Shown: piece by piece, positions 1-26,900 of the stretch | How positions within the stretch are numbered: the stretch's first letter is position 1 | How the letters are laid out: the number at the start of each line of letters is the position of its first letter | Program-made: the position numbers and the translations under genes | From: a virus | Reading direction: 5' to 3' (one strand) | Virus record (IMG/VR): IMGVR_UViG_3300042866_001699 | Coordinates: 1 to 26,900 of that record | DNA: 26,900 bases | The notes under the pieces: model-generated | Databases searched by the model: none | What the model was told of the DNA's origin: nothing | The model's input: the letters and a program-made list of their open reading frames with translations, nothing else

Positions 1-403
1 GCGAAAATCCTAAATCCTCGATGCGCCTGCGTTGATCCATTCGGGTTTCCTCGAGCGCTGAGGTTGCACGGCGGCGCACGTCGGGCAATGCACCAACCGC
101 GCCAATTCCCATCGTCGCAGCGCCGAGCGCAAGCCCCGCGGCGCCCAGGCCAAGCCCGAGCCCGCCCATAGCGCCGACCTGAGCGAGCCCGCCGAGCATT
201 CCTAAGCCCTTGCCACCGACGCCAAATTGACCGAGCGCACCTTGCGTACGCATCGCCGATTCGCCGAAACTCTTGAGTTTCTTGTTGGTCGTTTCGGCCG
301 CCGCGTTGAGGCGGTTAAGCTCGCGCCGCGCGGAATCTGTCGCGGCTTGCAAGCCCTTTGAGTCGCCGGTAATGGCAATATTGACGCGTGAGATTTTAGC
401 CAA
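1..403 (-). CDS. Tail tape measure protein, 5' part (cut by window start)
   Basis: This is the N-terminal 134 residues of the tape measure protein, whose 3' end lies outside the window. The intact homologue is at 15,699-16,418. The start is a TTG preceded by a strong ribosome-binding site (AAGGAGG, six bases upstream), and the gene overlaps the end of the gp10-like gene by eight bases. The N-terminal 60 residues are a polar amphipathic helix, followed by a Gly/Ala-rich hydrophobic stretch, the usual tape measure pattern. The protein sets tail length and is threaded through the tube during assembly. The assignment rests on this composition and on its position after the tail chaperone, not on a recognised domain. 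Confidence 0.75.
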   Translation of the reverse strand, partial: MAKISRVNIAITGDSKGLQAATDSARRELNRLNAAAETTNKKLKSFGESAMRTQGALGQFGVGGKGLGMLGGLAQVGAMGGLGLGLGAAGLALGAATMGIGAVGALPDVRRRATSALEETRMDQRRRIEDLGFS

Positions 404-977
404 GGCCCGCCTCCTTTATCGCTTTCTCAACTTCGGGCTTGACGAATCGCACGGCCGCGGCGCTCAATGGCGCTCGGTATTTCTTAATCCAGTTTCTTGG
501 TTGCGATTGGCCGACCACGCGGAAGTTGAGCGCTCGGCCGCGCTCGCCGCGCTGCTTCAACAGGATTCTCTCTTGCTGTGACGTCGCGCGTTTAATCGCG
601 TGGCCGTTCTCAAGCCATCCAAGGTACCAGTGAGGCGTTAGGTAACTGCCGTCGATGCGCTTGACGCCGACGCCGATCCACGTCACAAGACCCTTGCTGT
701 AGCCCTTGACCTTTGTAATCACCGACCAATTGAGGTGCACGTTTGGACGCACGGCACCGCGTACGCGCTCGGTTGCTTTGGTCTTTCCGAACGGTGCCGT
801 GGCCTCGAGCGCTTTCTTGGTGAACTTGCCCCACTTGGTGAAGCCGCGGCGCATGGCGTTGCGCGCGGCCTTCTCACTGAGCTGCAACAGGCGATGGTTG
901 ATTTGCTCGAGCGCTTTCGCGTCGATTTCGCATCCAACTGCAAACGTCTTGCTTTTGAAATTTGGAAGCGATGTCAT
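396..977 (-). CDS. HK97 gp10-like tail component (193 aa)
   Basis: The N-terminal half has the look of the HK97 gp10 family: a helix-rich start, an Arg/Lys-rich segment containing MRRGFTKWGKFTKKALEAT, then the motif APFGKT, and further on a W-x-G strand and a HWYLGWLENG segment near residue 118. Family members act in tail completion or the head-tail joint. In most HK97-like genomes this gene lies between the head-closure and tail-terminator genes; here it lies between the tail chaperone and the tape measure. Its first 104 bases overlap the -1 frame extension of the chaperone. The ATG at 975-977 was chosen because both copies share it and the protein aligns from there. Confidence 0.75.
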   Translation of the reverse strand: MTSLPNFKSKTFAVGCEIDAKALEQINHRLLQLSEKAARNAMRRGFTKWGKFTKKALEATAPFGKTKATERVRGAVRPNVHLNWSVITKVKGYSKGLVTWIGVGVKRIDGSYLTPHWYLGWLENGHAIKRATSQQERILLKQRGERGRALNFRVVGQSQPRNWIKKYRAPLSAAAVRFVKPEVEKAIKEAGLG

Positions 978-1107
978 GGGAGAAAGCCTTGTGCCCTCGA
1001 AGGGCGAGAAACACGGCGAGCGGCGTATCTAGTTGCACCTTCAATTCCGCCGCACTCAGGATTTCGCGTGCGGCGCTGGCAAGTCCAAGCCCTCCAGGTA
1101 GAGCGGC
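874..1107 (-). CDS. -1 frame extension of the tail assembly chaperone (T domain)
   Basis: This frame is open from just after a TGA at 1,108-1,110 to a TGA at 874-876, in the -1 frame relative to the chaperone gene. It has no convincing start of its own. Slippage somewhere between 1,059 and 1,107 would give a fusion of about 164 aa, like the G/GT pair of lambda. The two copies differ at 982, 985, 1006 and 1024 in the part that overlaps no other gene, and all four changes are silent third-position changes in this frame (Leu, Ala, Phe and Thr codons kept). No canonical X-XXY-YYZ slippery heptamer is visible. A separately initiated gene is the alternative. Confidence 0.6.
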   Translation of the reverse strand, partial: AALPGGLGLASAAREILSAAELKVQLDTPLAVFLALRGHKAFSHDIASKFQKQDVCSWMRNRRESARANQPSPVAAQ

Positions 1108-1367
1108 TCAATCAATCGAGCGAGGCGCATCACCATCGGTGCATTGCAGATTTCCTTGACGTACTCAATCGACTTGAATGCCTGGCGGCCGTTCTCGTCA
1201 AGTACGTGCTGCCACACGTACCACGCGGGCATAAACTCGCCGCGAGATTCTGCGTCTTGCGCTGCGATGAAATGCGCGACAGTCGGCCGCGACAGCGAAA
1301 CCTCCCTGCCGTCGAACTGCACGACAGCAGGGCGGGAGAGAAAGGCGTCAACGATTGATGGGCTCAT
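1056..1367 (-). CDS. Tail assembly chaperone, G-like (103 aa)
   Basis: This 103-aa protein lies between the tail tube gene and the tape measure, the invariant place of the G-type tail assembly chaperone in siphophages. Its start is coupled to the tube gene stop by an ATGA overlap. The composition (acidic and helical, with a segment reading DAESRGEFMPAWYVWQHVL in the middle) suits a small cytoplasmic chaperone that coats the tape measure before tube polymerisation. The frame after its stop continues in -1 as a conserved extension (see 874-1107), which supports the call. No domain was recognised with certainty; the assignment rests mostly on position and on the frameshift architecture. Confidence 0.65.
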   Translation of the reverse strand: MSPSIVDAFLSRPAVVQFDGREVSLSRPTVAHFIAAQDAESRGEFMPAWYVWQHVLDENGRQAFKSIEYVKEICNAPMVMRLARLIEPLYLEGLDLPAPHAKS

Positions 1368-1747
1368 TCGGTAATCGTAATGGCGTTTTGGGAGAACAGA
1401 AGCGTGGCCGTTAACCGCGCGACATCATTCGGTGCAACGCTAAGCGATGCCTCCTGCACGAATGCCTTGCCTTTGATCGAGTGGCCCGATGCCCAAATGA
1501 CCTCCGCCTCGTTGATAATTGTGCCGCCCGAAATGCCAGTGAGTATGTTGGCGTTATTGCTTGCCGAATCGTAAAACACCTCAATTTGCACAGTGCCTTC
1601 GAGGAAGCCCTGCACGTGGTGCTTGTGCGTGTCGCCGATCGCGGTGACGTCAATTTGCTGACGCGTGACCGAGATAGTCGCGGCGCTGACGTCAGCGATT
1701 GTGTTTGAGCCTAACTTGACGCTTGCTGCGGTGGTGGGTGATGGCAT
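1364..1747 (-). CDS. Major tail tube protein (127 aa)
   Basis: A 127-aa protein rich in Thr, Ser, Val and Ile in alternating strands. Its N-terminal block (VKLGSNTIADVSAATISV) leads into TRQQIDVTAIGDTHKHHVQG, matching the first strands and the T-x-x-G loop common in small siphophage tail tube proteins. The middle contains a G-x-V-Q-I-E-V-F-Y-D strand. The tube subunit polymerises as stacked hexameric rings around the tape measure. Its start overlaps the stop of the tail-terminator gene by one base (TAATG), so the two are translated together. The copy-2 version at 17,379 differs at a handful of residues. Confidence 0.8.
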   Translation of the reverse strand: MPSPTTAASVKLGSNTIADVSAATISVTRQQIDVTAIGDTHKHHVQGFLEGTVQIEVFYDSASNNANILTGISGGTIINEAEVIWASGHSIKGKAFVQEASLSVAPNDVARLTATLLFSQNAITITE

Positions 1748-2130
1748 TAGGGGCCGTCCTGATAGATTGTGAATTGACTCGTGACGATGTACAGGCCCGC
1801 CTCATCGCCGTTCTCGGCGACGGGCTCTTGCACGGTTCCGTACTGGGTGCAAATGACAGTCGCGCCCGCGAGGAGTCCGACGTTGTTGCGGATCTCATCG
1901 TCGAGCGTCGTGGCTGCGCTCACGTCGTCACTGATGGCGTTAAACGTGACGTCATAGGCAGATAGCGTGTTTTGATTTCCGAGCGCGACACGCGTGCCCG
2001 ATTGAATCTCAAACGTCATCGCTGGCAGCGTCGAAGTTTGCAAGCGTGTGCCGTAGTACACGCGCCGCCCCGCGGTCGTTTGTGACTCAAGCGTGCTCAT
2101 GATATCGCTAATGAGGGACGTGGCGCTCAT
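1747..2130 (-). CDS. Tail terminator / tail completion protein, DUF3168-like (127 aa)
   Basis: This 127-aa protein sits between the head-closure and tail tube genes. It has the size and pattern of the DUF3168/gpU-like tail terminator family: an N-terminal helix, then strands VYYGTRLQTSTLPAMTFEI and YDVTFNAISDDVSAATTLDD followed by a helix, and a closing strand LYIVTSQFTIYQD. These proteins form a ring that stops tube polymerisation and joins the tail to the head. The start codon overlaps the upstream stop by ATGA. The function is inferred from family resemblance and gene order; both agree. Confidence 0.75.
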   Translation of the reverse strand: MSATSLISDIMSTLESQTTAGRRVYYGTRLQTSTLPAMTFEIQSGTRVALGNQNTLSAYDVTFNAISDDVSAATTLDDEIRNNVGLLAGATVICTQYGTVQEPVAENGDEAGLYIVTSQFTIYQDGP

Positions 2131-2462
2131 GCGATTTCAGTGCAGTCAATGACTGCAACCCTCCGCCGTTGATCCATGTCGCGGATGCCGTTAATACGCA
2201 GCACTTTTGTGCCGTACTGCAAGCGATCGATCGCGGTGACGGTCAACCGCGCAATATTCGGCCAACGCGTACGAATTTCATACGCGCCAACCACAGCCAC
2301 GCCGTCACCGTATGACGTTTCCACTGGCGCCGATTCGCGCACGTCGCAAACGATTGTGCCAACGTTGGTGAACGTCGTAACGCGGCGGCCGAGCGAGTCG
2401 GGGCTATTGCCAGACGCGCGTAGCACAATCAATCGGAAACGCGTGAGGCCCGATGAGATCAT
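2127..2462 (-). CDS. Head closure / head-tail adaptor protein (111 aa)
   Basis: A small beta-rich protein of 111 aa resembling the phage head-tail adaptor family (SPP1 gp16 / HK97 gp7-like). It opens with a helix, then strands around TTFTNVGTIVCDVRESAP, a loop containing TSYGDGVAVVGAYEIRTRW, and a final LRINGIRDMDQRRRVAVIDC segment. The pattern 'xxINGIRDxDxRRR' close to the C-terminus is characteristic of this family. These proteins close the head after packaging and receive the tail. The gene is translationally coupled to its neighbours by ATGA overlaps on both sides. Confidence 0.78.
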   Translation of the reverse strand: MISSGLTRFRLIVLRASGNSPDSLGRRVTTFTNVGTIVCDVRESAPVETSYGDGVAVVGAYEIRTRWPNIARLTVTAIDRLQYGTKVLRINGIRDMDQRRRVAVIDCTEIA

Positions 2463-2977
2463 CGGAAAGGCCCTCGCACTCGCAGGTGCTCAAGCATAAA
2501 CTGAGCGCCGAGCGGCACTACCGACAGCGCGACGGGCTGCGCAGCTTCGGGGTTGTTGTAGTACAGGCCGACCAACGAAACGATGGCTTGCACCACCTCG
2601 TTTGGTTCGGTCGAGTAGCCGCCGACATACGTGACGGTTGCGAGCGTGCCCTCTTTTATCGCGGGCTCGTCAAGGAACTCGAGCGCTGCAAGATCCTGCG
2701 ACAAGTCCACCCAGTAATCGGTACCGCTCGTCATCGTCACCGTTGAGCCGCCAGTGCTCGTGTACGTCACCGACGTGAGCGATACGTATGGTTGCACCGC
2801 GAACACCGTGCGCTTCCAATCTCGCAAGTACATCGTGCGCGACGATTGGGTGAGCGACAAGCCCGTGTAGCGCTCGACCCACGACGTAGCGACACCGATG
2901 AGCCGGGTAAGCTCGGTGTCATCGTCGCTGTAGTCGATCTTCAGCGCCGTTTTAACGGTTGCAAGTGTTACAGCCAT
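2459..2977 (-). CDS. Head-tail connector protein, gp6-like (172 aa)
   Basis: This 172-aa protein follows the capsid gene and fits the gp6/phiE125 gp8-like connector family. It begins with the usual helix TLATVKTALKIDYSDDDTEL, followed by LIGVATSWVERYTGLSL, then a central strand-rich insertion, and ends with a helical segment PNEVVQAIVSLVGLYYNNPE. The family forms a ring attached beneath the portal. The ATG at 2975-2977 has no clear Shine-Dalgarno sequence, and the upstream space is occupied by a strong GC hairpin (2984-3009). Translation may therefore depend on coupling or on opening of that hairpin. Confidence 0.85.
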   Translation of the reverse strand: MAVTLATVKTALKIDYSDDDTELTRLIGVATSWVERYTGLSLTQSSRTMYLRDWKRTVFAVQPYVSLTSVTYTSTGGSTVTMTSGTDYWVDLSQDLAALEFLDEPAIKEGTLATVTYVGGYSTEPNEVVQAIVSLVGLYYNNPEAAQPVALSVVPLGAQFMLEHLRVRGPFR

Positions 2978-2983
2978 GAAACC

Positions 2984-3009
2984 CGCGCTAGGGGTTTCCC
3001 CCCAGCGCG
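2984..3009 (-). terminator. GC-rich hairpin after the capsid gene (possible attenuator)
   Basis: CGCGCT at 2984-2989 pairs with AGCGCG at 3004-3009, and GGGG at 2991-2994 pairs with CCCC at 3000-3003, leaving a loop of five bases. It lies in the 51-base gap between the capsid stop and the connector start. Copy 2 keeps the structure at 18,998-19,023 with a changed sequence and a one-base length change. There is no U-tract beyond a short TTT, so it may be an RNA-stabilising or attenuating structure and not a full terminator. Confidence 0.5.
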
Positions 3010-3028
3010 AGCGAAAGGTAAGAAATGT

Positions 3029-4306
3029 TTAGCAGGTGATCGCAGCGAACGCCGAAGCATTCATAATGTGCGAATCGGTTCGTGCGTACGTGTAGAGAGT
3101 GACCTGGTGAGTGCTCGCCGCCGAGTACGGGTCAACAAGCGAGGTCATTCCGGTGCGGTCGAAAATTTCAAAGTAGTTGAAATCGCCGACCACTGCAAAC
3201 ACGTTGTTGTTTGTTGTTGCTGTGCGTACGTACTGACCAACGCTATACGGCACACCGTAAAGCAAGCCCGGAGCGCCGCCGACCATCGTGCCAGCGTTCG
3301 ATTGTGCTTGCGTCCAGATGTATTCGGTAGAGCCGCTCGTTACGACGCTGTTCTTCAACTTGCGAGCGACGCGCACGAACGTATCAGAGAGAAGCCAACG
3401 GAACCGCGGCGAGTTGCGGTACTGCGGCGCGACAAGGTGCACCGTATCGATGACGTTGTCGGCGGTCACAGTGGTGACGGCGAGGCCTCCAAGGTCAGTC
3501 ACCTGAGAAAGCGCCACCAGCGCGGTGTTCATCGCCGAACCGGCGACCCCTTCCGGTTGGCTCGATCCGGTGCCGATGGTGTACGCCTCTTCCATTTTGA
3601 GCGCCATCGAAAGGCCGATGCGGCTTGCAACCCAATCGAGGCCACTTCCGATGCCACCTTGGCCGATCGCGTCTTCAATGAACTCTTGGCTCATCTGAGT
3701 CGCGCACACGTACTTGTACGGCACCACCGAAATGGCTGTGCCGAAGGTTGGATCGCTTGCGCTGATCGAATTTGCTTCTGTCACGAGCGCCGTGGTAGGA
3801 AGGTTGCCCTCAACAGTGATCGTGCGCTTCGAGTCGATCGAAGACACGGGGGCGATCGAGCGCAGCACGTTCGCCTGGTACATCTTCTCAACAATGCGGC
3901 GTTCCATGTCAGTCGGAATGCCGGCGCCAGTGGAGCCCGTTGAGAGCGCGCGCATTTCTGCGGCGTCGCCACGCGCGACAGCGTGAAGCCAACGCTTCGC
4001 GTACTCAGGGCTTGCAAGATCGTGCTTGACGTCTGCACGTGCGACCACGCCGCGGAACTGCGGTTGCGAGCGTTCCTCTTCAAGTTGCTTCAAGCGCTCT
4101 TGCGCTGCCCGAAGCGCCAAGCGGTCTTGGTTCATGCGCTCGACGGCGTCCAGGTCGGCGTCGATACGCGCGATCTTCTCACGCTCTTCGCCGCTGCCGC
4201 GGATCTCAACGTGGTGCGTCTTTGCACCAGTGCGAGCGGCGAACGAGTCGAGGGTCTTGCGGTACTCGTGAACGGTGTTTTCGAGGTTGGTCAACTCTTC
4301 AGACAT
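3029..4306 (-). CDS. Major capsid protein, HK97 fold (425 aa)
   Basis: This 425-aa protein follows the protease gene. It has the two-part layout of an HK97-type capsid precursor. About 115 N-terminal residues are charged and helical (coiled coil around residues 45-85), which is the delta/scaffold segment expected to be removed by the protease. The body then follows, with features such as RRIVEKMYQANVLRSIAPV, a 'SQEFIEDA' helix and a C-terminal strand block ending near AFAAITC. The ATG at 4304-4306 gives the same 425-aa length in both copies and overlaps the protease stop by eight bases; a longer upstream frame exists but is out of keeping with copy 2. Subunits form the icosahedral shell. Confidence 0.9.
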   Translation of the reverse strand: MSEELTNLENTVHEYRKTLDSFAARTGAKTHHVEIRGSGEEREKIARIDADLDAVERMNQDRLALRAAQERLKQLEEERSQPQFRGVVARADVKHDLASPEYAKRWLHAVARGDAAEMRALSTGSTGAGIPTDMERRIVEKMYQANVLRSIAPVSSIDSKRTITVEGNLPTTALVTEANSISASDPTFGTAISVVPYKYVCATQMSQEFIEDAIGQGGIGSGLDWVASRIGLSMALKMEEAYTIGTGSSQPEGVAGSAMNTALVALSQVTDLGGLAVTTVTADNVIDTVHLVAPQYRNSPRFRWLLSDTFVRVARKLKNSVVTSGSTEYIWTQAQSNAGTMVGGAPGLLYGVPYSVGQYVRTATTNNNVFAVVGDFNYFEIFDRTGMTSLVDPYSAASTHQVTLYTYARTDSHIMNASAFAAITC

Positions 4307-4856
4307 GGTTCTGCATCCTGTGCTTGTGGATTTCGAGCCGCAGACGGGCGGCCTCCGTTGCAGCCGCGGACACGCTCCGCAGGCTCGAATTGGTCTTGTC
4401 GCCGTAGGCAGCGTCAACCACTACGCTCAACTCAACGAGTCGAGCCGCGGTCACGGTGCGTTCAGTGCGTCGCGGGTTCCACTCGTCGCGATCGACGTAG
4501 AAACCGAACGACATTTCGCCGCTTAGGTCGCCGCGTTCAAGCAGCGCACGCACGTCGTTGCCGACGCTCGTCTCGGCGAGATTCGCGGTGAACCGCACCC
4601 CGCTCGCAGTGTCGTTGAGCGTCAGCGTGCCGCTGCGCGTGCGAGCAAGCAACGCGCTCGCGTTGTGGTTGAAGAGCAGTTTGATGTCAGCGCCGGCGAG
4701 GTCGCCGAAAGCGCCACGCGAGATGCGCTCTTTGAACTGCGGGTTGAATGGTTCGGAAATCTCACGCGACCACTTGCCGTACGGGATCGCGAGCCCTGAA
4801 AGCGTGCGGCCGGCTGGCGCACCGATGGTGACGCTGCGACGTTCAAGCGAAGTCAT
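4299..4856 (-). CDS. Prohead maturation protease, HK97 gp4 / U35 family (185 aa)
   Basis: A 185-aa serine protease of the HK97 prohead type. The N-terminal LSGLAIPYGKWS block and the ISRGAFGD segment are family signatures. The probable catalytic residues are His64 in LLFNHN, Ser116 in GEMSFGF, and Glu142 in RLVELSVV, in the spacing seen for HK97 gp4. The protease is packaged inside the prohead and removes the capsid delta domain, then degrades itself. The gene overlaps the portal gene by 14 bases upstream and the capsid gene by eight bases downstream, the standard portal-protease-capsid order. Confidence 0.92.
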   Translation of the reverse strand: MTSLERRSVTIGAPAGRTLSGLAIPYGKWSREISEPFNPQFKERISRGAFGDLAGADIKLLFNHNASALLARTRSGTLTLNDTASGVRFTANLAETSVGNDVRALLERGDLSGEMSFGFYVDRDEWNPRRTERTVTAARLVELSVVVDAAYGDKTNSSLRSVSAAATEAARLRLEIHKHRMQNHV

Positions 4857-6000
4857 CTACGCTCCCTGCGCTCGTGTCGCTTCCGAGGTTGGTAGTGCCG
4901 CCGCCCGCGCCCATGTTCTTGGCGAGGATTGGATCGTCGAGCCCGTCGAGCGGCGCAAGGTTCAGGTACTCACGTGCTTCGTTTCGCGTGATTACTCCGG
5001 ACTCGACGCCCGTGCGAAGCGCCGCCATTTGCTCGGCGAGCGACGGCCGAGAGATCATGTCAGCGTCAAACGTCGCCGAACCAAACGGCGCAAGCTTCGC
5101 GACGATTTCGGCCGACCACGTCGAGAACCAGTGCTGCAAGCACGCGTCCACGTACATGCGAGACAGCCACTCCATCGAGCCGTAGGCGTTTGCACTGTGC
5201 TCGCTCAGGTACGACGTCGGCACGCCGTAGATACGCGATACGTCCTCGACGCTGTAACGACGCGCGGCCGAGATTCCGGAATCATCGAGCGTGCTGCTAA
5301 TACGCTCGACTTTCATACCTTCAGAAAGCACCAACGGTTTGCCCGCATTCGCGGCGCCCGCGTGGTGCTTCATGTAATCCTCGAGCACCATTTGACGTGC
5401 AGGGGCGCCCATCGGCCCGGGCGACACGATGGCAATCTTTGGGTTGCCAGCGTTCTTCATCACTTCCAGTTGCGCTTGCTCTTGCGATGCGAGCACGCTG
5501 AGCGACGTGCGGCACAATCGCACTGGCGACTCGCCCCACAACCCGTCAAGCCCGATGGCTCGAAGGTGCAGCATTGATGACATCGGAACATCACCGTAGA
5601 GCCGCGTCTTGTAGACCGGCTCGGGCTTTGTGAGATCGAGCGTTACGCTTTCGATATCGAGCGGCAACAACTCAAGCAACTCACCACCGAGGGTGCGGTT
5701 AATCACGGCGAACGCGTTGCCGTATAGCAGCGCTTGCATCGTGAGCGATCGGCGAAACTCAAAGCCATTCTGCCAGCGGTTCGGTTGCTGAAGTAGAGCG
5801 TTCGCGGTGCGCTCGCTTACGTCGAGCGGTACGCGTGCAACGTCGTTGGCGATGAGCGAGGCTGCGCGGTAGACGGGCGTATATGCGAGCGCCGTGCCTG
5901 GCGTGATCGTGGGCATGCCCACCGAGTCGAAACTCGTGGGAAGGAGAACGCCGTGCGTTCCCCAGTGGCCGAGCCATCGTTGCAACAGTCCACGCAGCAT
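4843..6000 (-). CDS. Portal protein, HK97 family (385 aa)
   Basis: This protein has the phage portal pattern: YTPVYRAASLIANDVARVPL near residue 40, LLYGNAFAVINR near residue 90, a long central region, and the IYGVPTSYLSEHS motif near residue 260 that contacts the wing/stem. It forms the dodecameric ring at the capsid vertex through which DNA enters and leaves. The ATG at 5998-6000 was chosen because it gives the same 385 aa as copy 2. In copy 1 an in-frame ATG at 6031-6033 adds 11 residues and has a better ribosome-binding site (AGGTG), but copy 2 has no start codon there. Confidence 0.92.
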   Translation of the reverse strand: MLRGLLQRWLGHWGTHGVLLPTSFDSVGMPTITPGTALAYTPVYRAASLIANDVARVPLDVSERTANALLQQPNRWQNGFEFRRSLTMQALLYGNAFAVINRTLGGELLELLPLDIESVTLDLTKPEPVYKTRLYGDVPMSSMLHLRAIGLDGLWGESPVRLCRTSLSVLASQEQAQLEVMKNAGNPKIAIVSPGPMGAPARQMVLEDYMKHHAGAANAGKPLVLSEGMKVERISSTLDDSGISAARRYSVEDVSRIYGVPTSYLSEHSANAYGSMEWLSRMYVDACLQHWFSTWSAEIVAKLAPFGSATFDADMISRPSLAEQMAALRTGVESGVITRNEAREYLNLAPLDGLDDPILAKNMGAGGGTTNLGSDTSAGSVDDFA

Positions 6001-6045
6001 GTGGGTATTTGGTGGGCTGCGCTCGTGCAGCATTACACCTAAACG

Positions 6046-7725
6046 CTATTGTTTGAAATATTCTTCTGCTTCTTCGTCGTACACGCTGCGCTTCGCGCCG
6101 CCCCAAACGTGCGTCGCAATGATGGACGCCACAAGCGGATCAATGGCACAGAATTCCCGCGACTTAATTGGTCGAATGTTTCCATTCTGATCGCGCTTAG
6201 CGTGCGCGTCGGCACACGCACGGCGCAAGATCGGGTCATCGCCGATCACGAGCCGCGAGCCCGCCCATAGGTTTTGGAACAGGTTGCATCCCGGCCCGAA
6301 CGTGGCGATACCCATGCGGTACACCACCAGCGGCACGCCGTCGGTTTGCAGTTGCTCGGCGAGATACTTCGAGCCCCACGCGTCGTAGCCGACGGCCTTG
6401 ACGTCAAACTCGTCGCGCAGGGCGAGGATTTGCGCCCGCACCGAGTCGTAGTCGATTTCGCGCCCTGGCGTGAGCGTTATCTTGCCATCAGAAGCCCACG
6501 ATCGGATCGGGTAGCGGTAGTCCAGTTCGCGCTGGGCGACCTCGGCCCGAGGCCACCAGTAGTGACCGCGGAGCGCCACGCGGCCGTTGTCGAGCGGCAC
6601 GGCCACGACCATAGCCGTCATGTCGAGCGACTTGGAAAGGTCGAGGCCCACCCACGCGGGCTTTCCTTTGAGGGCTTCCCAATCGACTTTCTGACCGCCT
6701 GGCCACAACGACATATCGAGCCATCCGCCCGTGTTCTCGTCACACCTGGCGGCGTGGTAGCGGGCGAATTCGCCCCGCCCCATCGCGCTGCGCTTCATCG
6801 TGTTCCAAGATCGCTTCAGGCTTACAAGGTCGGGTTGGCCGTGTTCGAGGCCCGGGTTTGCTTTCACCCAGGTTGATTCATCCTCGAGCGGGTCGGTCGG
6901 GTCGAGCCCGTACAGCATCGGCAGCACGGTGTCATCCTCGAGCTCACCGCTCAGGATTGCTTCGCCCTGCTTGACCAGTTCTGCGTAGTGGTTCTCGGGG
7001 TTGCTGCCTGGCGTGGTGATGATGACGCCGGTGGATTCGCGGCGCTTGGCGCCGGTGGTCAGCAGTTTGGTGAGGAAGCGGCCTTTAAACTCGGCCGCCT
7101 CGTCGGCGATCCACAGCGATGGGTTTAGGCCGTCAAGCGATCGCTCAAGCGCTGGCAGTGCGGTCATTTGACAGTCATGCTCGAGGCGGAGCACGGCATG
7201 TGCTCGGGCGATGAGCGTGGGGTCGCCTAGGCGGTGCGCCATCGTTCGCGCGGTGTCGAGACAGATTTCGGCTTGCTCCTCGTTGTTGGCGATGACGTGC
7301 ACGCGGCGGCCTTCGCCCGCGAGGAGGTCGAAGAGGGCTAGGCCAGCCATCAAAGTCGTTTTGCCGTTGCCGCGAGCGACTTGCACCATTGCTAGGCGGC
7401 AGCGCCGTCGGCCGTCAGGCAAGCGCCACCCGACGATGTTGGCGAGAACCCACAGTTGCCACGGGTGCAGCTCGAAGGGTTTGCCGGAATCCTCGCCGAC
7501 CAGGTTGAGCGAGCGGAAATGAGCGGCGACGGCGTCGACTTCAGGCCACGACATGACGAGGTCGGAGCGCTCAAGGTCGCGCCGGAAGCGCTGCGCCGCG
7601 GCGTAGATCCAACGTCCGGCGGGGGTGCGGCCGTCAATCACGGCATTGACGTAGGCAAGCACCGCAGAACGCGCACAAGTTACGTCCGAGGCGGTGTGAT
7701 TCCGTACATGGGGGGCATTAGCCAA
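6046..7725 (-). CDS. terL: Large terminase subunit, HK97-type TerL (559 aa)
   Basis: The packaging motor: an ATPase that drives DNA into the prohead and a nuclease that cuts concatemers. The Walker A motif ARGNGKTT is at about residues 117-124 and the Walker B LWIADEAAE has Asp208-Glu209. The C-terminal nuclease begins with VGLDLSKSLDMTAM near residue 365, continues with VGYDAWGSKYLAEQL, and a last acidic residue falls in CAIDPLVAS. The start is a TTG at 7723-7725 preceded by a run of seven G, identical in both copies; no in-frame ATG lies nearby. No small terminase gene is recognisable. The gene directly follows an HNH nuclease, as in HK97-like packaging modules. The stop is TAG. Confidence 0.95.
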   Translation of the reverse strand: MANAPHVRNHTASDVTCARSAVLAYVNAVIDGRTPAGRWIYAAAQRFRRDLERSDLVMSWPEVDAVAAHFRSLNLVGEDSGKPFELHPWQLWVLANIVGWRLPDGRRRCRLAMVQVARGNGKTTLMAGLALFDLLAGEGRRVHVIANNEEQAEICLDTARTMAHRLGDPTLIARAHAVLRLEHDCQMTALPALERSLDGLNPSLWIADEAAEFKGRFLTKLLTTGAKRRESTGVIITTPGSNPENHYAELVKQGEAILSGELEDDTVLPMLYGLDPTDPLEDESTWVKANPGLEHGQPDLVSLKRSWNTMKRSAMGRGEFARYHAARCDENTGGWLDMSLWPGGQKVDWEALKGKPAWVGLDLSKSLDMTAMVVAVPLDNGRVALRGHYWWPRAEVAQRELDYRYPIRSWASDGKITLTPGREIDYDSVRAQILALRDEFDVKAVGYDAWGSKYLAEQLQTDGVPLVVYRMGIATFGPGCNLFQNLWAGSRLVIGDDPILRRACADAHAKRDQNGNIRPIKSREFCAIDPLVASIIATHVWGGAKRSVYDEEAEEYFKQ

Positions 7726-7760
7726 AACTTACCCCCCCGTTCGAGCGCAAAATGTGCATA

Positions 7761-7780
7761 TGTGGATAACTTGTGGATAA
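7761..7780 (-). other. Two perfect tandem DnaA boxes (candidate replication origin)
   Basis: On the minus strand the nonamer TTATCCACA, the classical bacterial DnaA box, occurs twice (7772-7780 and 7761-7769) as a direct repeat with an 11-bp period, close to one helical turn. The pair fills the start of the 56-bp gap between the HNH and terminase genes and is identical in copy 2 (23,775-23,794). The match to the DnaA consensus is seen directly; origin function is inferred. Iterons for a phage protein are an alternative. Confidence 0.55.
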
Positions 7781-7781
7781 C

Positions 7782-8051
7782 TCAATCGGACGCGTGGTGT
7801 GCCTTGTGGCAGCGCTTGCAGAGCGTTTCGAGGTTGCTCCAATCGTTCCAACGATGGGGCGCATGGGCACGCTGCACGATGTGGTGCACCTCCTCGCCAG
7901 CGAGCCCGCATCGGTTGCAGGCAGGGTGATGCATAAGCCAGTGGCGCCGAATGCGCTGCCAGTTGCCACCGCTGAAGCCTGCGACATGATCGGCCTCAAA
8001 GCGCCTCGCGTTGGGAATCTGTGGCTTCGGGTCGAATACTGGTATTCCCAC
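7782..8051 (-). CDS. HNH endonuclease (89 aa)
   Basis: A small zinc-binding HNH nuclease: Cys45 and Cys48, the His56-His57 pair in EEVHHIVQ, Asn73 in WSNLETLC, and Cys78 and Cys81 followed by His82. In HK97-like phages an HNH protein encoded beside the terminase assists the large subunit in cutting DNA ends, and the position here fits that role. The frame is open further upstream to an ATG at 8084, but the GTG at 8049-8051 has a good ribosome-binding site (GAGGAG, about seven bases before it) conserved in copy 2, so it is preferred. Either way the 5' end overlaps the end of the preceding nuclease gene (56 bases for the GTG start). Confidence 0.85.
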   Translation of the reverse strand: MGIPVFDPKPQIPNARRFEADHVAGFSGGNWQRIRRHWLMHHPACNRCGLAGEEVHHIVQRAHAPHRWNDWSNLETLCKRCHKAHHASD

Positions 8052-8397: not shown

Positions 8398-8443
8398 TTT
8401 AGCAGCGATGTCTACCAGTTCCTTTCCACTCGCAAGCGATAGT

Positions 8444-8476: not shown

Positions 8477-8498
8477 ATCTCTTTCTATATAGCGCAGG

Positions 8499-10117: not shown

Positions 10118-10132
10118 GCGTATTGCCTCCGT

Positions 10133-18992: not shown

Positions 18993-18997
18993 AAACC

Positions 18998-19023
18998 CGC
19001 GCCGGGGGTTTCCCCCCAGCGCG
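18998..19023 (-). terminator. GC-rich hairpin after the capsid gene, copy 2
   Basis: CGCGC (18,998-19,002) pairs with GCGCG (19,019-19,023), and GGGGG (19,004-19,008) pairs with CCCCC just after a TTT loop. Compared with copy 1 the sequence changed, including one deleted base in the gap, but the stem is retained and its inner helix lengthened by one pair. This suggests the structure is selected. Confidence 0.5.
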
Positions 19024-19042
19024 AGCGAAAGGTAAGAAATGC

Positions 19043-20320: not shown

Positions 20321-20870
20321 GGCTTGTCATCCTGTGCTTGTGAATCTCGAGCCGCAGCGCCGCGGCTTCAATGGCAGCCGCGGAAACACTCCGCAGGCTC
20401 GATGAGGTCTTGTCGCCGTAGGCAGCGTCAACCACTACGCTGAGCTCGACGAGCCGCGCGGCGGTAACGGTGCGTTCAGTGCGTCGCGGGTTCCACTCGT
20501 CGCGATCGACGTAGAAACCAAACGACATTTCGCCGCTCAAGTCGCCGCGCTCGAGCATCGCACGCACGTCGTTTCCGACGCTTGTTTCGGCGAGATCCGC
20601 AGTGAAGCGAAGCCCGCTCGCGGTATCGTTGAGCGTGAGCGTGCCGCTACGCGTGCGAGCGAGCAACGCGCTCGCGTTGTGGTTGAAGAGCAGTTTGATG
20701 TCAGCGCCTGCCAGGTCGCCAAATGCGCCGCGGGTGATTCGCTCACGAAACTGCGGGTTGAACGGCTCGGAGATTTCGCGGCTCCACTTGCCGTATGGAA
20801 TCGCGAGGCCCGACAACGTGCGGCCCGCTGGTGCGCCAATCGTGACGCTGCGACGTTCAAGCGAAGTCAT
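20313..20870 (-). CDS. Prohead maturation protease, HK97 gp4 / U35 family, copy 2 (185 aa)
   Basis: Homologue of 4299-4856. His64, Ser116 and Glu142 are all kept in LLFNHN, GEMSFGF and RLVELSVV. Differences include Arg-Glu-Arg-Ile-Thr for Lys-Glu-Arg-Ile-Ser near residue 44, Met for Leu near 105, and Ile-Glu-Ala-Ala-Ala near the end. A longer frame to 20,972 exists but overlaps the portal gene by over 100 bases; the ATG at 20,868-20,870 matches copy 1. Confidence 0.92.
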   Translation of the reverse strand: MTSLERRSVTIGAPAGRTLSGLAIPYGKWSREISEPFNPQFRERITRGAFGDLAGADIKLLFNHNASALLARTRSGTLTLNDTASGLRFTADLAETSVGNDVRAMLERGDLSGEMSFGFYVDRDEWNPRRTERTVTAARLVELSVVVDAAYGDKTSSSLRSVSAAAIEAAALRLEIHKHRMTSHV

Positions 20871-22014
20871 CGACGCTCCCCGCGCTAGTGTCAGCGCCGA
20901 TGTTGGTTTGACCGCCGCCCGTGCCCATGTTCTTCGCGAGGATCGGATCATCGAGCCCGTCAAGCGGCGCAAGGTTCAGGTACTCACGCGCTTCGTTGCG
21001 CGTGATGACGCCGGACTCGACGCCAGTGCGCAGCGCTGCCATTTGCTCGGCGAGCGACGGCCGAGAGATCATGTCAGCGTCAAACGTCGCCGAGCCGAAC
21101 GGCGCAAGTTTCGCAACGATCTCGGCCGCCCACGTGCTGAACCAGTGCTGCAAACACGCGTCCACGTACATGCGAGACAGCCATTCCATCGAGCCATAGG
21201 CGTTCGCGCTGTGCTCGCTCAGGTACGACGTCGGCACGCCATAGATGCGCGAAACGTCTTCGACGCTGTAACGACGCGCGGCCGAGATTCCGGAATCGTC
21301 GAGCGTGCTACTGATGCGCTCGACCTTCATGCCTTCTGCGAGCACAAGCGGCTTGCCGGCGTTCGCCGCACCGGCATGGTGCTTCATGTAGTCCTCAACC
21401 ACCATCTGTCGCGCGGGTGCGCCCATTGGGCCCTGTGCGACGATGGCAATCTTCGGGTTGCCCGCGTTCTTCATCACTTCGAGCTGCGCTTGCTCCTGCG
21501 ATGCAAGCACACTGAGCGACGTGCGGCACAATCGCACTGGCGATTCGCCCCACAAGCCATCGAGCCCGACGGCTCGAAGGTGCAGCATCGATGACATCGG
21601 CACGTCACCGTACAGCCGCGTTTTGTAGACCGGCTCAGGCTTCGTGAGATCGAGCGAAACGCTTTCGATGTCGAGCGGCAACAACTCAAGCAACTCGCCA
21701 CCGAGCGTGCGGTTGATCACGGCGAACGCGTTGCCGTATAGCAGCGCTTGCATCGTAAGCGAGCGGCGAAACTCAAAGCCATTCTGCCAGCGGTTCGGTT
21801 GCTGCAACAACGCGTTTGCAGTGCGCTCGCTCACGTCGAGCGGCACGCGTGCCACGTCGTTGGCGATGAGCGAAGCCGCGCGGTATACGGGCGTATATGC
21901 AAGCGCCGTGCCTGGCGTGATCGTGGGCATACCCACCGAGTCGAAACTCGTGGGAAGGAGAACGCCATGCGTTCCCCAGTGGCCGAGCCATCGTTGCAAC
22001 AGTCCGCGCAGCAT
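20857..22014 (-). CDS. Portal protein, HK97 family, copy 2 (385 aa)
   Basis: Homologue of 4843-6000; about a dozen residues differ, such as AQGPMG for SPGPMG near residue 207 and TGGGQTNIG near the end. The YGVPTSYLSEHS motif and the AYTPVYRAASLIANDV block are unchanged. The ATG at 22,012-22,014 is the only plausible start here, since the copy-1 alternative 11 codons upstream is not a start codon in this copy. No good ribosome-binding site precedes it, so the true start could be a rare codon further up. Confidence 0.92.
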   Translation of the reverse strand: MLRGLLQRWLGHWGTHGVLLPTSFDSVGMPTITPGTALAYTPVYRAASLIANDVARVPLDVSERTANALLQQPNRWQNGFEFRRSLTMQALLYGNAFAVINRTLGGELLELLPLDIESVSLDLTKPEPVYKTRLYGDVPMSSMLHLRAVGLDGLWGESPVRLCRTSLSVLASQEQAQLEVMKNAGNPKIAIVAQGPMGAPARQMVVEDYMKHHAGAANAGKPLVLAEGMKVERISSTLDDSGISAARRYSVEDVSRIYGVPTSYLSEHSANAYGSMEWLSRMYVDACLQHWFSTWAAEIVAKLAPFGSATFDADMISRPSLAEQMAALRTGVESGVITRNEAREYLNLAPLDGLDDPILAKNMGTGGGQTNIGADTSAGSVDDFA

Positions 22015-22059
22015 GTGCGTATTTGGTGGGCTGCGATTGCGCGGGATTGCACCTAAACG

Positions 22060-23739
22060 CTATTGTTTGAAATATTCTTCGGCTTCTTCGTCATACACGC
22101 TGCGCTTGGCGCCGCCCCACACGTGCGCGGCAATGATGGACGCCACGAGCGGATCAATCGCGCAGAATTCCCGCGACTTAATTGGCCGAATGTTTCCATT
22201 CTGATCGCGCTTGGCGTGCGCATCGGCACACGCGCGGCGCAAGATTGGATCATCACCGATCACTAGGCGCGAGCCCGCCCATAGGTTTTGGAATAGGTTG
22301 CATCCGGGCCCGAAGGTGGCGATGCCCATCCGGTACACCACGAGCGGCACGCCGTCGGCTTGCAGTTGTTCGGCCAAGTACTTCGAGCCCCACGCGTCGT
22401 AGCCGACGGCCTTAACGTCAAACTCGTCGCGCAGGGCGAGGATTTGCGCCCGCACCGAGTCGTAATCAATCTCGCGCCCTGGCGTGAGCGTGATCTTGCC
22501 ATCGGAAGCCCACGCGCGGATTGGGTAGCGGTAGTCGAGCTCACGCTGCGCGACGTCGGCCCGAGGCCACCAGTAGTGGCCGCGCAGCGCCACGCGGCCA
22601 TTGTCAAGCGGCACTGCCACAACCATAGCCGTCATATCGAGCGACTTGGAAAGGTCGAGGCCCACCCACGCGGGCTTTCCTTTCAGCGCTTCCCAGTCAA
22701 TGCGCTGCCCGCCCGGCCACAGCGACATATCAAGCCAGCCGCCCGTGTTCTCGTCACACCTAGCGGCGTGGTACCTGGCGAATTCGCCGCGCCCCATCGC
22801 CGAGCGTTTCATTGTGTTCCACGATCGCTTCAGGCTCACAAGGTCGGGTTGGCCGTGCTCGAGGCCAGGGTTAGCCTTCACCCACGTTGACTCATCCTCG
22901 AGCGGGTCGGTGGGATCGAGCCCGTACAGCATCGGCAACACCGTGTCATCGTCAAGTTCGCCGGACAGGATTGCTTCGCCCTGTTTGACGAGTTCGGCGT
23001 AGTGGTTCTCGGGGTTGCTGCCGGGGGTGGTGATGATTACGCCGGTGGATTCTCGGCGCTTGGCGCCGGTGGTTAACAACTTGGTCAAGAACCGGCCCTT
23101 GAACTCGGCCGCCTCATCAGCGATCCACAGCGATGGATTCAAGCCGTCAAGCGAGCGCTCGAGCGCTGGCAGTGCCGTCATTTGGCAATCCTGCTCAAGG
23201 CGTAGCACGGCGTGTGCTCGGGCGATCAAAGTTGGGTCACCGAGGCGCTGCGCCATTGTGCGGGCGGTGTCCAGGCAGATTTCTGCCTGCTCTTCGTTGT
23301 TGGCGATTACGTGCACGCGGCGGCCCTCGCCCGCGAGAAGGTCAAAGAGCGCAAGCCCGGCCATCAGCGTGGTCTTGCCGTTGCCGCGGGCGACCTGCAC
23401 CATTGCAAGTCGGCAGCGTCGACGGCCGTCGGGTAGTCGCCACCCGACGATGTTGGCGAGTACCCACAGTTGCCACGGGTGCAGCTCGAAGGGCTTGCCG
23501 GAATCTTCGCCGACCAGGTTGAGCGAGCGGAAGTGCTCGGCGACGCGCTCGACGTCAGGCCACGACATTACCAGGTCGGAGCGCTCGAGGTCGCGCCGGA
23601 AGCGCTGCGCCGCGGCGTAGACCCAACGTCCGGCGGGTGTACGGCCGTCAATGACGGCATTGACGTAGGCAAGCACCGCAGTACGCGTACAAGTTACGTC
23701 CGAGGCGGTGTGATTCCGTACATGGGGGGCATTAGCCAA
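22060..23739 (-). CDS. terL: Large terminase subunit, HK97-type TerL, copy 2 (559 aa)
   Basis: Homologue of 6046-7725 with about 16 changed residues of 559. Four lie between residues 62 and 68 (DVERVAEHF for EVDAVAAHF). Walker A (ARGNGKTT), Walker B (LWIADEAAE) and the nuclease motifs are identical. The TTG start and the run of G before it are the same as in copy 1, which supports this unusual start. The stop is TAG in both copies. Confidence 0.95.
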   Translation of the reverse strand: MANAPHVRNHTASDVTCTRTAVLAYVNAVIDGRTPAGRWVYAAAQRFRRDLERSDLVMSWPDVERVAEHFRSLNLVGEDSGKPFELHPWQLWVLANIVGWRLPDGRRRCRLAMVQVARGNGKTTLMAGLALFDLLAGEGRRVHVIANNEEQAEICLDTARTMAQRLGDPTLIARAHAVLRLEQDCQMTALPALERSLDGLNPSLWIADEAAEFKGRFLTKLLTTGAKRRESTGVIITTPGSNPENHYAELVKQGEAILSGELDDDTVLPMLYGLDPTDPLEDESTWVKANPGLEHGQPDLVSLKRSWNTMKRSAMGRGEFARYHAARCDENTGGWLDMSLWPGGQRIDWEALKGKPAWVGLDLSKSLDMTAMVVAVPLDNGRVALRGHYWWPRADVAQRELDYRYPIRAWASDGKITLTPGREIDYDSVRAQILALRDEFDVKAVGYDAWGSKYLAEQLQADGVPLVVYRMGIATFGPGCNLFQNLWAGSRLVIGDDPILRRACADAHAKRDQNGNIRPIKSREFCAIDPLVASIIAAHVWGGAKRSVYDEEAEEYFKQ

Positions 23740-23774
23740 AACTTACCCCCCCCATCGAGCGCAAAATGTGCATA

Positions 23775-23794
23775 TGTGGATAACTTGTGGATAA
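23775..23794 (-). other. Two perfect tandem DnaA boxes, copy 2
   Basis: TGTGGATAA on the plus strand (TTATCCACA on the minus) occurs at 23,775-23,783 and 23,786-23,794, with the same 11-bp period as in copy 1. The surrounding 56-bp gap differs from copy 1 by only about two bases. Confidence 0.55.
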
Positions 23795-23795
23795 C

Positions 23796-24065
23796 TCAAT
23801 CGGACGCGTGGTGTGCCTTGTGGCAGCGCTTGCACAGCGTTTCGAGGTTGCTCCAATCGTTCCATCGGTGTGGCGCGTGAGCACGTTGCACGATGTGGTG
23901 CACTTCCTCGCCGGCGAGCCCGCATCGGTTGCAGGCAGGGTGATGCATAAGCCAGTAGCGGCGAATGCGCTGCCAGTTGCCACCGCTGAAGCCTGCGACA
24001 TGGTCAGCTTCAAAGCGCCTCGCGTTGGGAATCTGTGGCCTCGGGTCGAAGACTGGTATTGCCAC
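23796..24065 (-). CDS. HNH endonuclease, copy 2 (89 aa)
   Basis: Homologue of 7782-8051 with all zinc-binding and catalytic residues kept (C-x-x-C, EEVHHIVQ, WSNLETLC, C-x-x-CH). Residue 37 is Tyr for His and residue 9 is Arg for Lys. The GTG at 24,063-24,065 with GAGGAG upstream is preferred; a nucleotide difference just before it changes Ile to Thr in the longer version, while all differences nearby are silent in the overlapping resolvase-like frame. Confidence 0.85.
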   Translation of the reverse strand: MAIPVFDPRPQIPNARRFEADHVAGFSGGNWQRIRRYWLMHHPACNRCGLAGEEVHHIVQRAHAPHRWNDWSNLETLCKRCHKAHHASD

Positions 24066-24393
24066 GTTGGTACTCCTCGACAAAGCGTGGTAAGTCATCC
24101 AGGCGAATCATCAGCAACCACGGCCGATGACTCGAGCGCATCAGCACCGCGCAAGTCTTCTTGCCACGGCTATCGGTAAGCGCCTGGTCGAGGAACGCGT
24201 AGGGGTTCAAGCGCTCGACGCGCTTGACTTCCCACCAAACGTCCATTCGGTCACACACAACGTCCGGGTCTTTGTGCCCTCCGAAGCGGTTTGCATACTG
24301 GGTGACTCGGCGACAGTCGATACCGACCCTCGCCAGTACCTCACAGGCTTCCAGTTCTCCACGCTTACCTTTCTCGCGGCTCGATCGTGACAT
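24010..24393 (-). CDS. PD-(D/E)XK nuclease, Holliday-junction resolvase-like, copy 2 (127 aa)
   Basis: Homologue of 7996-8379, identical but for one residue near the C-terminus (Leu for Ile in NTSLRPEAT), despite many silent base changes. The KDPDVVCD and WWEVKRVE motifs are intact. An in-frame TGA about 45 bases upstream of the ATG limits the 5' end here, which supports the start at 24,391-24,393. Strong purifying selection suggests the nuclease is essential. Confidence 0.78.
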   Translation of the reverse strand: MSRSSREKGKRGELEACEVLARVGIDCRRVTQYANRFGGHKDPDVVCDRMDVWWEVKRVERLNPYAFLDQALTDSRGKKTCAVLMRSSHRPWLLMIRLDDLPRFVEEYQRGNTSLRPEATDSQREAL

Positions 24394-24411
24394 ATCCACA
24401 AGATATCCACA
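24392..24411 (+). other. Two degenerate DnaA-like boxes, copy 2
   Basis: ATATCCACA occurs at 24,392-24,400 and 24,403-24,411, spaced as in copy 1 (8378-8397). A single base between the boxes differs. Just beyond them the two copies lose all similarity. Confidence 0.35.
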
Positions 24412-24452
24412 TTTAGCAGCGATGTCTACTGTTCATTTGTCGTACCCCTAAC

Positions 24453-24484
24453 CGACATCAAGCCCCTATCAGGCTTGATTGTCG
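24453..24484. other. Hairpin in the non-coding segment after the ATPase gene, copy 2
   Basis: CGACATCAAGCC (24,453-24,464) pairs with GGCTTGAT, a bulged T, and GTCG (24,472-24,484) around a seven-base loop. The sequence is unrelated to the copy-1 hairpin at 8444-8476, but the position in the gap is the same. There is no U-tract. The remainder of the 118-base gap contains a TATATA stretch also seen in copy 1. Confidence 0.45.
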
Positions 24485-24511
24485 TTGTACTCTTTATATA
24501 GGCAACCACAA

Positions 24512-25537
24512 TTACAATTCTCCCTTCACGACCCTCACAAGCACCTTACGACGGTTGCCCGCTTTGCCTGTGTCCTGTGCGACTTCCTTGACTTTGTTCG
24601 TCCTAATCGCCTCATCCGCCAACCATCGAGCGTGCGACTGGGTCACGCCCATTTCCTGCGCTTTCACGGTCAACACCGTCTTGCTGCTCGTGTTGTCGAC
24701 GACTTCGCGCACAAACTCATCCACGGTCATGGGCTGAGCCTTGTTCTTCTGCGCTGCTTTCTTCGCTGTCCATAGGTCATCTAGGTTCAAACTAGGGTCA
24801 ACCGTGACAAACGGCGGGTTGAGCGTCAGCCCCACGGCCATCGGTCGGCGGCTCGAGCGGCATTCACCGCGCAGCACCACGCAACCTTCTTCCATATGCC
24901 GTAGGAACGCCAGGTGCGTGTCCGTCGCCCTGGCGATGGCACCGGCGCCCGATCCGACGTCGGTGGTGGCTTTATTCGATTGGTCGCCCTTCGAGCTGTG
25001 GTGCACGTTGATGATCGCGGCACCGCTGAACTCGGCGATGCGGTCAAGGTGGTTGTAAACGCCCGTCATTTCGCCGTTCGCGTTCTCATCGACGCCATTG
25101 AGGAAGCGATAGAACGCGTCCAGGGCGATCACGTCGAATGCGCCCCGTCCGGCGGCCCGTAGCGTGGCCTCGACGTCCTCGAGGGTTGCCATGCGCCCGC
25201 GCACGAATGCCACGCGTACGCGCTCGTCAAAGAGCTCTTTTTTGATGCCGAGCGCCTCGACCACGTTGGCCATGCGGTTCTTGGCAGTCTCGGGGTGTAA
25301 CTCGTTGTCGACGAGCAATACCCGCGACTGGGTGCACTGGCGGCCCAGCCACGCGCCTCCGCTCGCGAGCGCCGCGATGAGGTGGTACAGCATCCAAGTC
25401 TTGCCCGTCTTGCTTGCACCGATGAAGTTGCAGATTTCGCCCCTGCGAAGCAGCCCGTCAACGACAAACGGGCGCATCGGCGGCACACCATCGCCGATCG
25501 AGGGCGAGGCGATTTCGAATGGTGTCGGCTCGCTCAT
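24512..25537 (-). CDS. RepA/AAA_25-type RecA-fold ATPase, copy 2 (341 aa)
   Basis: Homologue of 8523-9536. Residues 1-260 are close to copy 1, with the same Walker A (GASKTGKT), NELHPE, Walker B (FDVIALD) and NVHHSSKG motifs. After DDLWTAKKA the sequence is almost entirely different: about 80 residues running from QKNKAQPMTVDEFV to RKVLVRVVKGEL. They keep the helical outline of a small DNA-binding domain. This is a sharp domain swap. The ATG at 25,535-25,537 overlaps the upstream stop (ATGA) and follows a GAGG, so the longer frame from 25,630 is rejected. Confidence 0.8.
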   Translation of the reverse strand: MSEPTPFEIASPSIGDGVPPMRPFVVDGLLRRGEICNFIGASKTGKTWMLYHLIAALASGGAWLGRQCTQSRVLLVDNELHPETAKNRMANVVEALGIKKELFDERVRVAFVRGRMATLEDVEATLRAAGRGAFDVIALDAFYRFLNGVDENANGEMTGVYNHLDRIAEFSGAAIINVHHSSKGDQSNKATTDVGSGAGAIARATDTHLAFLRHMEEGCVVLRGECRSSRRPMAVGLTLNPPFVTVDPSLNLDDLWTAKKAAQKNKAQPMTVDEFVREVVDNTSSKTVLTVKAQEMGVTQSHARWLADEAIRTNKVKEVAQDTGKAGNRRKVLVRVVKGEL

Positions 25538-26091
25538 ACGATGTACCTCGCGAACGGTGAGCCGCGGTGCAGCACTTTCCAATCCTCGGAAATGTTCAGC
25601 CACAGGCGCTCGGTGTGCCGCGGATCCCAATCCTCGGGCAATTCAGCGCACAATCGCGCAGCGTGCTCGCACAGGTCAAGAAACTCTTGGGTGTCGTACC
25701 CAGCCATCGCCGCCATTGCTGCGTCATAGGCGCCGAGCGCACCCGCACAGACCAACTTCCACTCACCCTTCCTATCTCTCATGTAGCCCTCGAACGGGCG
25801 CCACGCGCCCATATGCGGCCGCCAATCGAGTGCCCTGCGGAATGCCGCCAGTTCACCCTCGCTCATGCGTTTGGCTTCTCGTCGGCGCTGGAACTCGACC
25901 AACACGCGTACCTGAGCACACAACCCGCTCACCTCGCTTGCACTCATTCCGTATTCAAGCCCCGCGTAATACGCAGCAAGTTCCCACGTGCACTGGTGCT
26001 CGCGTTTCGCGGCTTTGACCTTCTCGGGTAACTCAAACGCGAGCGCCGTCGGTTGCTGCGGCGGCTCGTCCATCCACAATTTAGCGTCCAT
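25534..26091 (-). CDS. Unknown early protein, divergent homologue (185 aa)
   Basis: Distant homologue of 9533-10,117, nine residues shorter. The first residues (MDAK-x-W), the central RRREA-(R/K)-RM-(T/S)-E-x-ELA-x-FR block, W-(K/R)-PH, FEGYMRDR and LCAELPEDWDPR are shared; the N-terminal third is otherwise different. It has no recognisable motif. The start ATG lies after the same terminator/ribosome-binding site arrangement as in copy 1. The rapid change compared with its neighbours may reflect exchange together with the ATPase C-terminus. Confidence 0.75.
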   Translation of the reverse strand: MDAKLWMDEPPQQPTALAFELPEKVKAAKREHQCTWELAAYYAGLEYGMSASEVSGLCAQVRVLVEFQRRREAKRMSEGELAAFRRALDWRPHMGAWRPFEGYMRDRKGEWKLVCAGALGAYDAAMAAMAGYDTQEFLDLCEHAARLCAELPEDWDPRHTERLWLNISEDWKVLHRGSPFARYIV

Positions 26092-26106
26092 GCGTAATAC
26101 CTCCGT

Positions 26107-26144
26107 AAAAAGCACAAGCCCCACGCGGGTGCACGTGGGGCTTG
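26107..26144 (-). terminator. Rho-independent terminator, copy 2
   Basis: The 11-bp stem (CAAGCCCCACG at 26,115-26,125 and its complement at 26,134-26,144), eight-base loop and five-T run (26,111-26,107) are identical to copy 1, even though the gene that follows is strongly diverged. Confidence 0.8.
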
Positions 26145-26184
26145 CTCAAGGAGCCACGCGGAGAGGCGGCCGCGCGGGGAATGG

Positions 26185-26622
26185 TCAGAATGGGATTTCG
26201 TCCGACTCGTCGACCGAGGTCGGGAAAGGTACACGCTTGAAGTCGGCTCGGCTGACCACTGTAATCGCATTTACGATGTGCTTATCTTTCCAGGGCTTCA
26301 GGACGATTTGGACGCGGTCGCCCTTACCGAGCGGGTCGACGGCTTCGGCCGCTTTCAGGTCGTACCAGTCCCAGTATTCCTTTTGGAGGTTGCCGGCTTG
26401 GTTCCACTCGATCCCGATGCGGGCTCGAGGGGTTCCGGCTTTTGTGGTGCCAACTTCCCAGTAGCACACCGTGCCATCGCGGAAAGAAAGCCTGGAATCG
26501 CCCGTAGCGGCGTCCGGCTTGATGGGCGCTCCTTGGCCCTGCGAAACGGGCGATGGCTTCTGCGAGGCTTCTAGGCGGCTCAGAATGGCGCGAATCTCGG
26601 CCAGTGCTTCAGTCGATGTCAT
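26185..26622 (-). CDS. SSB-like single-stranded DNA-binding protein, copy 2 (145 aa)
   Basis: Homologue of 10,212-10,649 with the same length and about 13 changes, mostly in the N-terminal linker (SPVSQGQGAPIKPDAATGDS). The acidic end DESDEIPF is intact, which supports its importance as a protein-docking tip. The start again lies 14 bases inside the preceding gene. Confidence 0.65.
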   Translation of the reverse strand: MTSTEALAEIRAILSRLEASQKPSPVSQGQGAPIKPDAATGDSRLSFRDGTVCYWEVGTTKAGTPRARIGIEWNQAGNLQKEYWDWYDLKAAEAVDPLGKGDRVQIVLKPWKDKHIVNAITVVSRADFKRVPFPTSVDESDEIPF

Positions 26623-26900
26623 TTGGCATTTCCTCCGCGGTAACTGTGGCGACTCGGTCGCCCATCAATGCAAACAAATGGCCGCAGCACAGGCGCAACG
26701 CCCGCCCTGCGGCACGGGTTGAGGCCATCGCTCGGCGGGCGAACTGGGGGCGACTGCCCCACGGCTTTTCATCATCGGTCACGATGCCCGAGCCGCGGCC
26801 TATCACGACGCCAGTGGATCGGTCGAGGATTTCGGCCGTGGCTTCCCATCCTTTGATGCCGTCGGCCTCGAAGCGCTTGACCTCGACTTCCTTGACCGCG
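26609..26900 (-). CDS. Putative single-strand annealing protein, 3' part (cut by window end)
   Basis: The C-terminal 96 residues of the homologue of 10,636-11,106; the 5' part lies beyond the window. The visible part is nearly identical in protein to copy 1, including the WGSRPQFARRAMASTRAAGRALRL-like region, split here as WGSRPQFARR and AMASTRAAGRALRLCCG. The frame stays open to the last base of the window, so no start should be placed inside it. Confidence 0.45.
   Translation of the reverse strand, partial: AVKEVEVKRFEADGIKGWEATAEILDRSTGVVIGRGSGIVTDDEKPWGSRPQFARRAMASTRAAGRALRLCCGHLFALMGDRVATVTAEEMPNDID

Follow-up and report, generated by a model that had tools for sequence, protein, structure and literature searches.

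A 26,900-bp viral record carries two diverged copies of a small siphovirus genome, probably joined head to tail by assembly

The window, that is, the whole stretch of DNA that was analysed, is the entire public IMG/VR record IMGVR_UViG_3300042866_001699 (26,900 bp), which is classed as linear. The following features were assigned.

1-16112: strain A, one complete unit of 16,015 bp followed by 97 bp that repeat its start exactly (1-97 = 16016-16112)
16016-16155: strain switch, 97 bp common to both copies and then 43 bp with alleles of neither copy 1 nor independent strain-B contigs
16156-26900: strain B, a partial unit; 10,732 of its 10,745 bases are those of IMGVR_UViG_3300034066_001305, ungapped
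1364-1747 (copy 1) and 17379-17762 (copy 2), minus: major tail protein (phrog_10528, 1.3e-6)
2459-2977 (copy 1) and 18474-18992 (copy 2), minus: head-tail connector (phrog_442, 1.2e-21; PF05135, 1.4e-9)
3029-4306 (copy 1) and 19043-20320 (copy 2), minus: HK97-type major capsid protein (PF05065, 2.4e-39; phrog_10, 2.6e-48); scores from the longer frame 3029-4417, start of copy 1 taken from copy 2
4299-4856 (copy 1) and within 20313-20972 (copy 2), minus: prohead protease, Peptidase_S78 (PF04586, 5.2e-31; phrog_80, 3.6e-34)
4843-6033 (copy 1) and 20857-22014 (copy 2), minus: portal protein (PF04860, 2.1e-63; phrog_12, 4.8e-72)
6046-7725, minus: large terminase subunit, copy 1 (phrog_9, 6.8e-113; PF20441, 9.7e-31; PF03354, 6e-16); the frame crosses cos and the start codon is putative
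22060-23739, minus: large terminase subunit, copy 2, with the length and frame of copy 1
7690-7698, minus: probable cos overhang, copy 1, reading CACACCGCC, a 9-nt 3' overhang
23704-23712, minus: probable cos overhang, copy 2, with the sequence and context of copy 1
7996-8454 (copy 1) and 24010-24399 (copy 2), minus: RusA-like or PDDEXK nuclease-like gene (phrog_244, 6.3e-14; PF24608 below the cutoff)
8523-9551 (copy 1) and 24512-25630 (copy 2), minus: AAA_25 replication ATPase of the primase/helicase type (PF13481, 5.8e-30; phrog_2597, 1.7e-40), with a swapped 3' end
9533-10150 (A-type) and 25534-26124 (B-type), minus: swapped module gene, each type occurring elsewhere in separate contigs that are single units
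14772-15695, minus: unnamed protein without a PHROG or Pfam match, encoded beside the tape-measure gene and containing a variable segment (~15015-15184)
15699-16418, minus: short tape-measure-like protein of 239 aa (weak match to phrog_13674, 1.3e-4), with the strain switch inside the gene; a second copy at 2-403 is cut by the contig start

Genes for the terminase, portal, S78 protease, HK97-fold capsid, connector, and major tail protein are present in this order on the minus strand. Judged from these genes and from the contig ends described below, each unit appears to be a small HK97-type cos siphovirus. Small siphoviruses such as the Arthrobacter phages of cluster AN (~15.5 kb) and the Rhodococcus phage RRH1 (14,270 bp) have been described (PMC5513430), and they are similar to the present units in genome size and in their siphovirus-type structural gene set, cluster AN being likened by description. 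Unlike these phages, the units have structural genes of which those tested gave no nucleotide match in the phage record collection, and their terminase and capsid were less than 60% identical to those of known phages, with the best matches at 26-29%.

Self-BLAST of the record gave three matches, all in direct orientation and with the order kept: 1-8425 with 16016-24438 (90.7% identity over 8,441 columns), 8751-9558 with 24753-25559 (88.2%), and 10069-10927 with 26043-26900 (89.0%). The homologous head-to-tail copies are 1-10,927 and 16,016-26,900, and the genes are repeated in order with a period of ~16,015 bp, which gives 1.68 units in the record. These results bear out the initial annotation, which had described two diverged ~16-kb copies joined head to tail. 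Its statement that the copies differ at many silent sites and at two swapped modules also proved correct. Of the 176 differences between the copies in the large terminase gene, 149 affect third codon positions, and 145 of the 161 changed codons are synonymous, so that both copies resemble functional genomes rather than decayed duplicates. The alignment of the copies is broken at two modules, ~8430-8750, where the AAA_25 ATPase gene has its 3' end, and ~9560-10068, in the bulk of the next gene, and identity in the alignment windows at both modules falls to 41-67%. Terminal redundancy of one genome was ruled out because the copies are ~9% different.

To place the two copies among related viruses, 125 terminase-bearing stretches of IMG/VR relatives were collected and 80 were kept. 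The long ones were 15-17 kb; those checked were single units, and the A-B junction was found in none of them. A single terminase gene per relative was found in the 18 relatives searched, and a single portal gene in the ten searched. One in-frame stop was counted inside each of the matches of L039 and L042 (terminase) and L030 (portal), which may represent early gene ends or frameshifts. Strain B was detected alone in IMGVR_UViG_3300034066_001305, a 17,339-bp contig whose two ends are identical over 1,163 bp, which gives a unit of 16,176 bp. Strain B is also present in other metagenomes (L003 and L016, both 99.8%). The nearest independent contigs of strain A matched it in pieces at 96-100% identity (L027, L091, L105, L083, and L092), and the closest contig changed from stretch to stretch. 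This patchwork may reflect natural recombination or further mixing during assembly. It had been proposed that contigs of each version closing as a circle of about 16 kb be looked for. Strain B closes in this way; for strain A, the A-type module variants were found in single-unit contigs, some of which span both physical ends. The suggestion that two related replicons coexist in one molecule is unsupported, strain B being a single closed unit elsewhere.

The position of the strain switch was determined by base-level comparison with the independent strain-B contig. The last mismatch of the record to strain B lies at 16155, and there is none across 16156-16972. Upstream of 16156, IMGVR_UViG_3300034066_001305 and the independent contig L104 agree with each other and differ from the record at dozens of sites in 15185-16155, which indicates that the usual left neighbour of this part of strain B is not the sequence found in the record. 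The switch was thus placed at 16,113-16,156, no later than 16156, and not at 10.9 kb. An alignment break at 15014-15185, where BLAST identity to strain B rises from 89% to 99%, was also considered as the switch and was rejected, since the base-level comparison revealed a variable gene segment there.

The switch coincides with the start of the contig. Positions 1-97 are identical to 16016-16112, and this is the sole run of at least 97 bp among 10,879 possible alignment start columns; at the local identity of 94%, the chance of such a run is ~0.25%. When strain A was compared with the whole strain-B circle, only two exact runs of at least 97 bp were detected (43-139 and 15652-15752), and the switch is at the first. 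The exact run at the contig start, together with the position of the switch, indicates that the start of the contig is the point at which the strains diverge. A length of 97 would presumably belong to a series of k values that starts at 27 and increases in steps of 10.

Since strain B occurs alone elsewhere as a single unit and the switch coincides with the contig start, the tandem is best read as a product of assembly from a natural population in which strains were mixed; the DNA of each strain would be real and the tandem arrangement would not. We assign this reading a probability of about 0.88. From the two copies, the single-unit strain B, the differing upstream sequence, and the coincidence of switch and start, all of which were observed, we infer a walk through the assembly graph. 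A short-read assembler would have circled the 16-kb genome of strain A once, returned to the stretch shared exactly at the k-mer level, left the strain A circle there, and continued for 10.8 kb into strain B. A walk of this kind leaves exactly such a pattern, whereas a real molecule has no reason to begin at the switch. Among the three explanations offered by the initial annotation, the assembler passing twice round a circular graph, which it had itself ranked as perhaps the likeliest, is accordingly the one favoured by the closed single unit of strain B and by the coincidence of switch and contig start.

Contigs in IMG/VR that repeat a genome have been called probable assembly artefacts by the authors of CheckV, who linked end repeats having a fixed, odd length to the k-mers that assemblers use (PMC8116208). 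As in those cases, the present contig is longer than one genome and holds the same genome more than once; unlike them, its copies are ~9% different and the second comes from another strain. The k-mer lengths named in that study are 55, 77, and 99, and the absence of 97 counts against the assembly reading. Two features of the record also count against it. The right contig end (26900) has no matching signature, with 30 identical bases only, and the 43-bp sequence at 16113-16155 belongs to neither strain, which suggests the involvement of a third strain or of a true recombinant. Judging from these bases, a third strain was likely present in the mix. Exact searches of viral contigs gave no match for the odd alleles of 16113-16155, and no match was found in viral contigs for the sequence immediately beyond the boundary of the unit; the exact bases there are thus neither confirmed nor contradicted by an independent contig.

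As described for Phables (PMC10563150), mixtures of phage strains are known to produce branching graphs, and chimeric contigs can result from repeats. The strain bubbles treated there resemble the present case in involving mosaic phage strains with shared stretches and branching graphs. The difference is that the walk here would have covered more than one round and so given a tandem, not one mosaic unit.

The ends of independent contigs allowed a packaging site to be located. Contigs from many metagenomes begin within the terminase frame, at 7689/7690, and others have their end at 7699, with the 9 nt between them absent (coinciding ends were found in L010-L014, L016-L022, L024-L026, L085, L088, L090, L092, and L096). 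L085, L088, and L096 (16,346, 17,180, and 16,639 bp) are single complete units running from cos end to cos end. In L005, L015, L084, L089, and L098, all or nearly all of the 9 nt are kept beside short tails that are not phage-like. These contig ends point to a probable cos site with the 9-nt 3' overhang CACACCGCC inside the terminase frame. The overhang was presumably removed by end repair in one library type and kept in another. In L098, positions 1-13 read GCTCTTCCGATCT directly before the genome end, apparently an Illumina adapter left in the public record.

The record itself runs unbroken through both cos sites (7690-7698 and 23704-23712), which indicates that part of the sampled DNA probably had its cos ends joined. 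This continuity would also be expected of a real mixed concatemer, in which strains A and B recombined at the shared stretch in a co-infected cell and the resulting head-to-tail A-B molecule was sequenced before it could be cleaved at cos for packaging. The relatives are strongly mosaic in contig comparisons, which indicates that recombination between strains is common and is in line with such an event. However, the start of a real molecule should be random relative to the crossover, yet the two positions agree to within ~140 bp out of 16 kb; a rare intermediate is not normally expected to beat monomers in assembly; and the A-B junction occurs in no other contig. We thus regard a mixed concatemer as unlikely.

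The head-to-tail arrangement, in which the modules of both copies follow the same order, would likewise be explained if related phages were present in one host as tandem prophages or as a stable double episome. Neither an integrase nor a host flank was seen among the annotated proteins that were scanned. When bacterial genomes were searched, one for each of 84,980 species, the terminase had no close relative by single-sequence search, and by alignment there were only matches of 32% and 38%. In addition, the relatives are free single units ending at cos. These findings argue against integrated or episomal tandems, which were among the possibilities listed initially and which we consider very improbable. 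A single larger phage genome with two diverged copies of every gene would agree with the record being one contig, but its relatives are single 15-17 kb units, several of them running from cos end to cos end, both halves match independent contigs piecewise, and near-identical single-unit contigs were found for strain B. It is scarcely credible that the record represents such a genome.

Since the tandem is almost certainly an assembly product, the finding is ordinary and serves mainly as a caution. The k-mer duplication score of the record is 1.12 at 15-mers by our own calculation, which is not that of CheckV, and given this score a k-mer duplicate filter would likely miss the record. Mixed-strain concatemers ~9% apart can thus escape duplicate filters that rely on shared k-mers, and virus catalogues that include them can list genomes that are too long and gene numbers that are too high. 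The analysis also yielded, usefully, a group of small siphoviruses whose contig ends reveal a probable cos site. Were the tandem real, it would represent strain-level recombination in a natural co-infected cell.

Several variable stretches were observed in the course of these comparisons. The segment 15015-15184 in the gene 14772-15695 is sharply bounded and ~170 bp long. L004, L010, L092, and L095 align on either side of it and not inside, and L083 and L091 match it at 100%. The segment looks like an exchanged domain in the protein adjoining the tape-measure gene. In the tape-measure-like gene, L091 carries an unrelated 440-bp segment (L091:3560-3998 against 15703-16140) and is 96-98% identical to strain A on either side. 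L092 is near strain A at 7699-15014 (96.6%), and at 15185-16155 it has the same differences from the record as the strain-B contig L004, a pattern suggestive of strong mosaicism, whether natural or made by assembly. Finally, a 45-bp stretch at 13867-13910 is 89% identical to 14214-14257. The two stretches lie in the neighbouring small genes 13659-13970 and 13970-14332, the proteins of which are similar, and these genes probably arose by local duplication.
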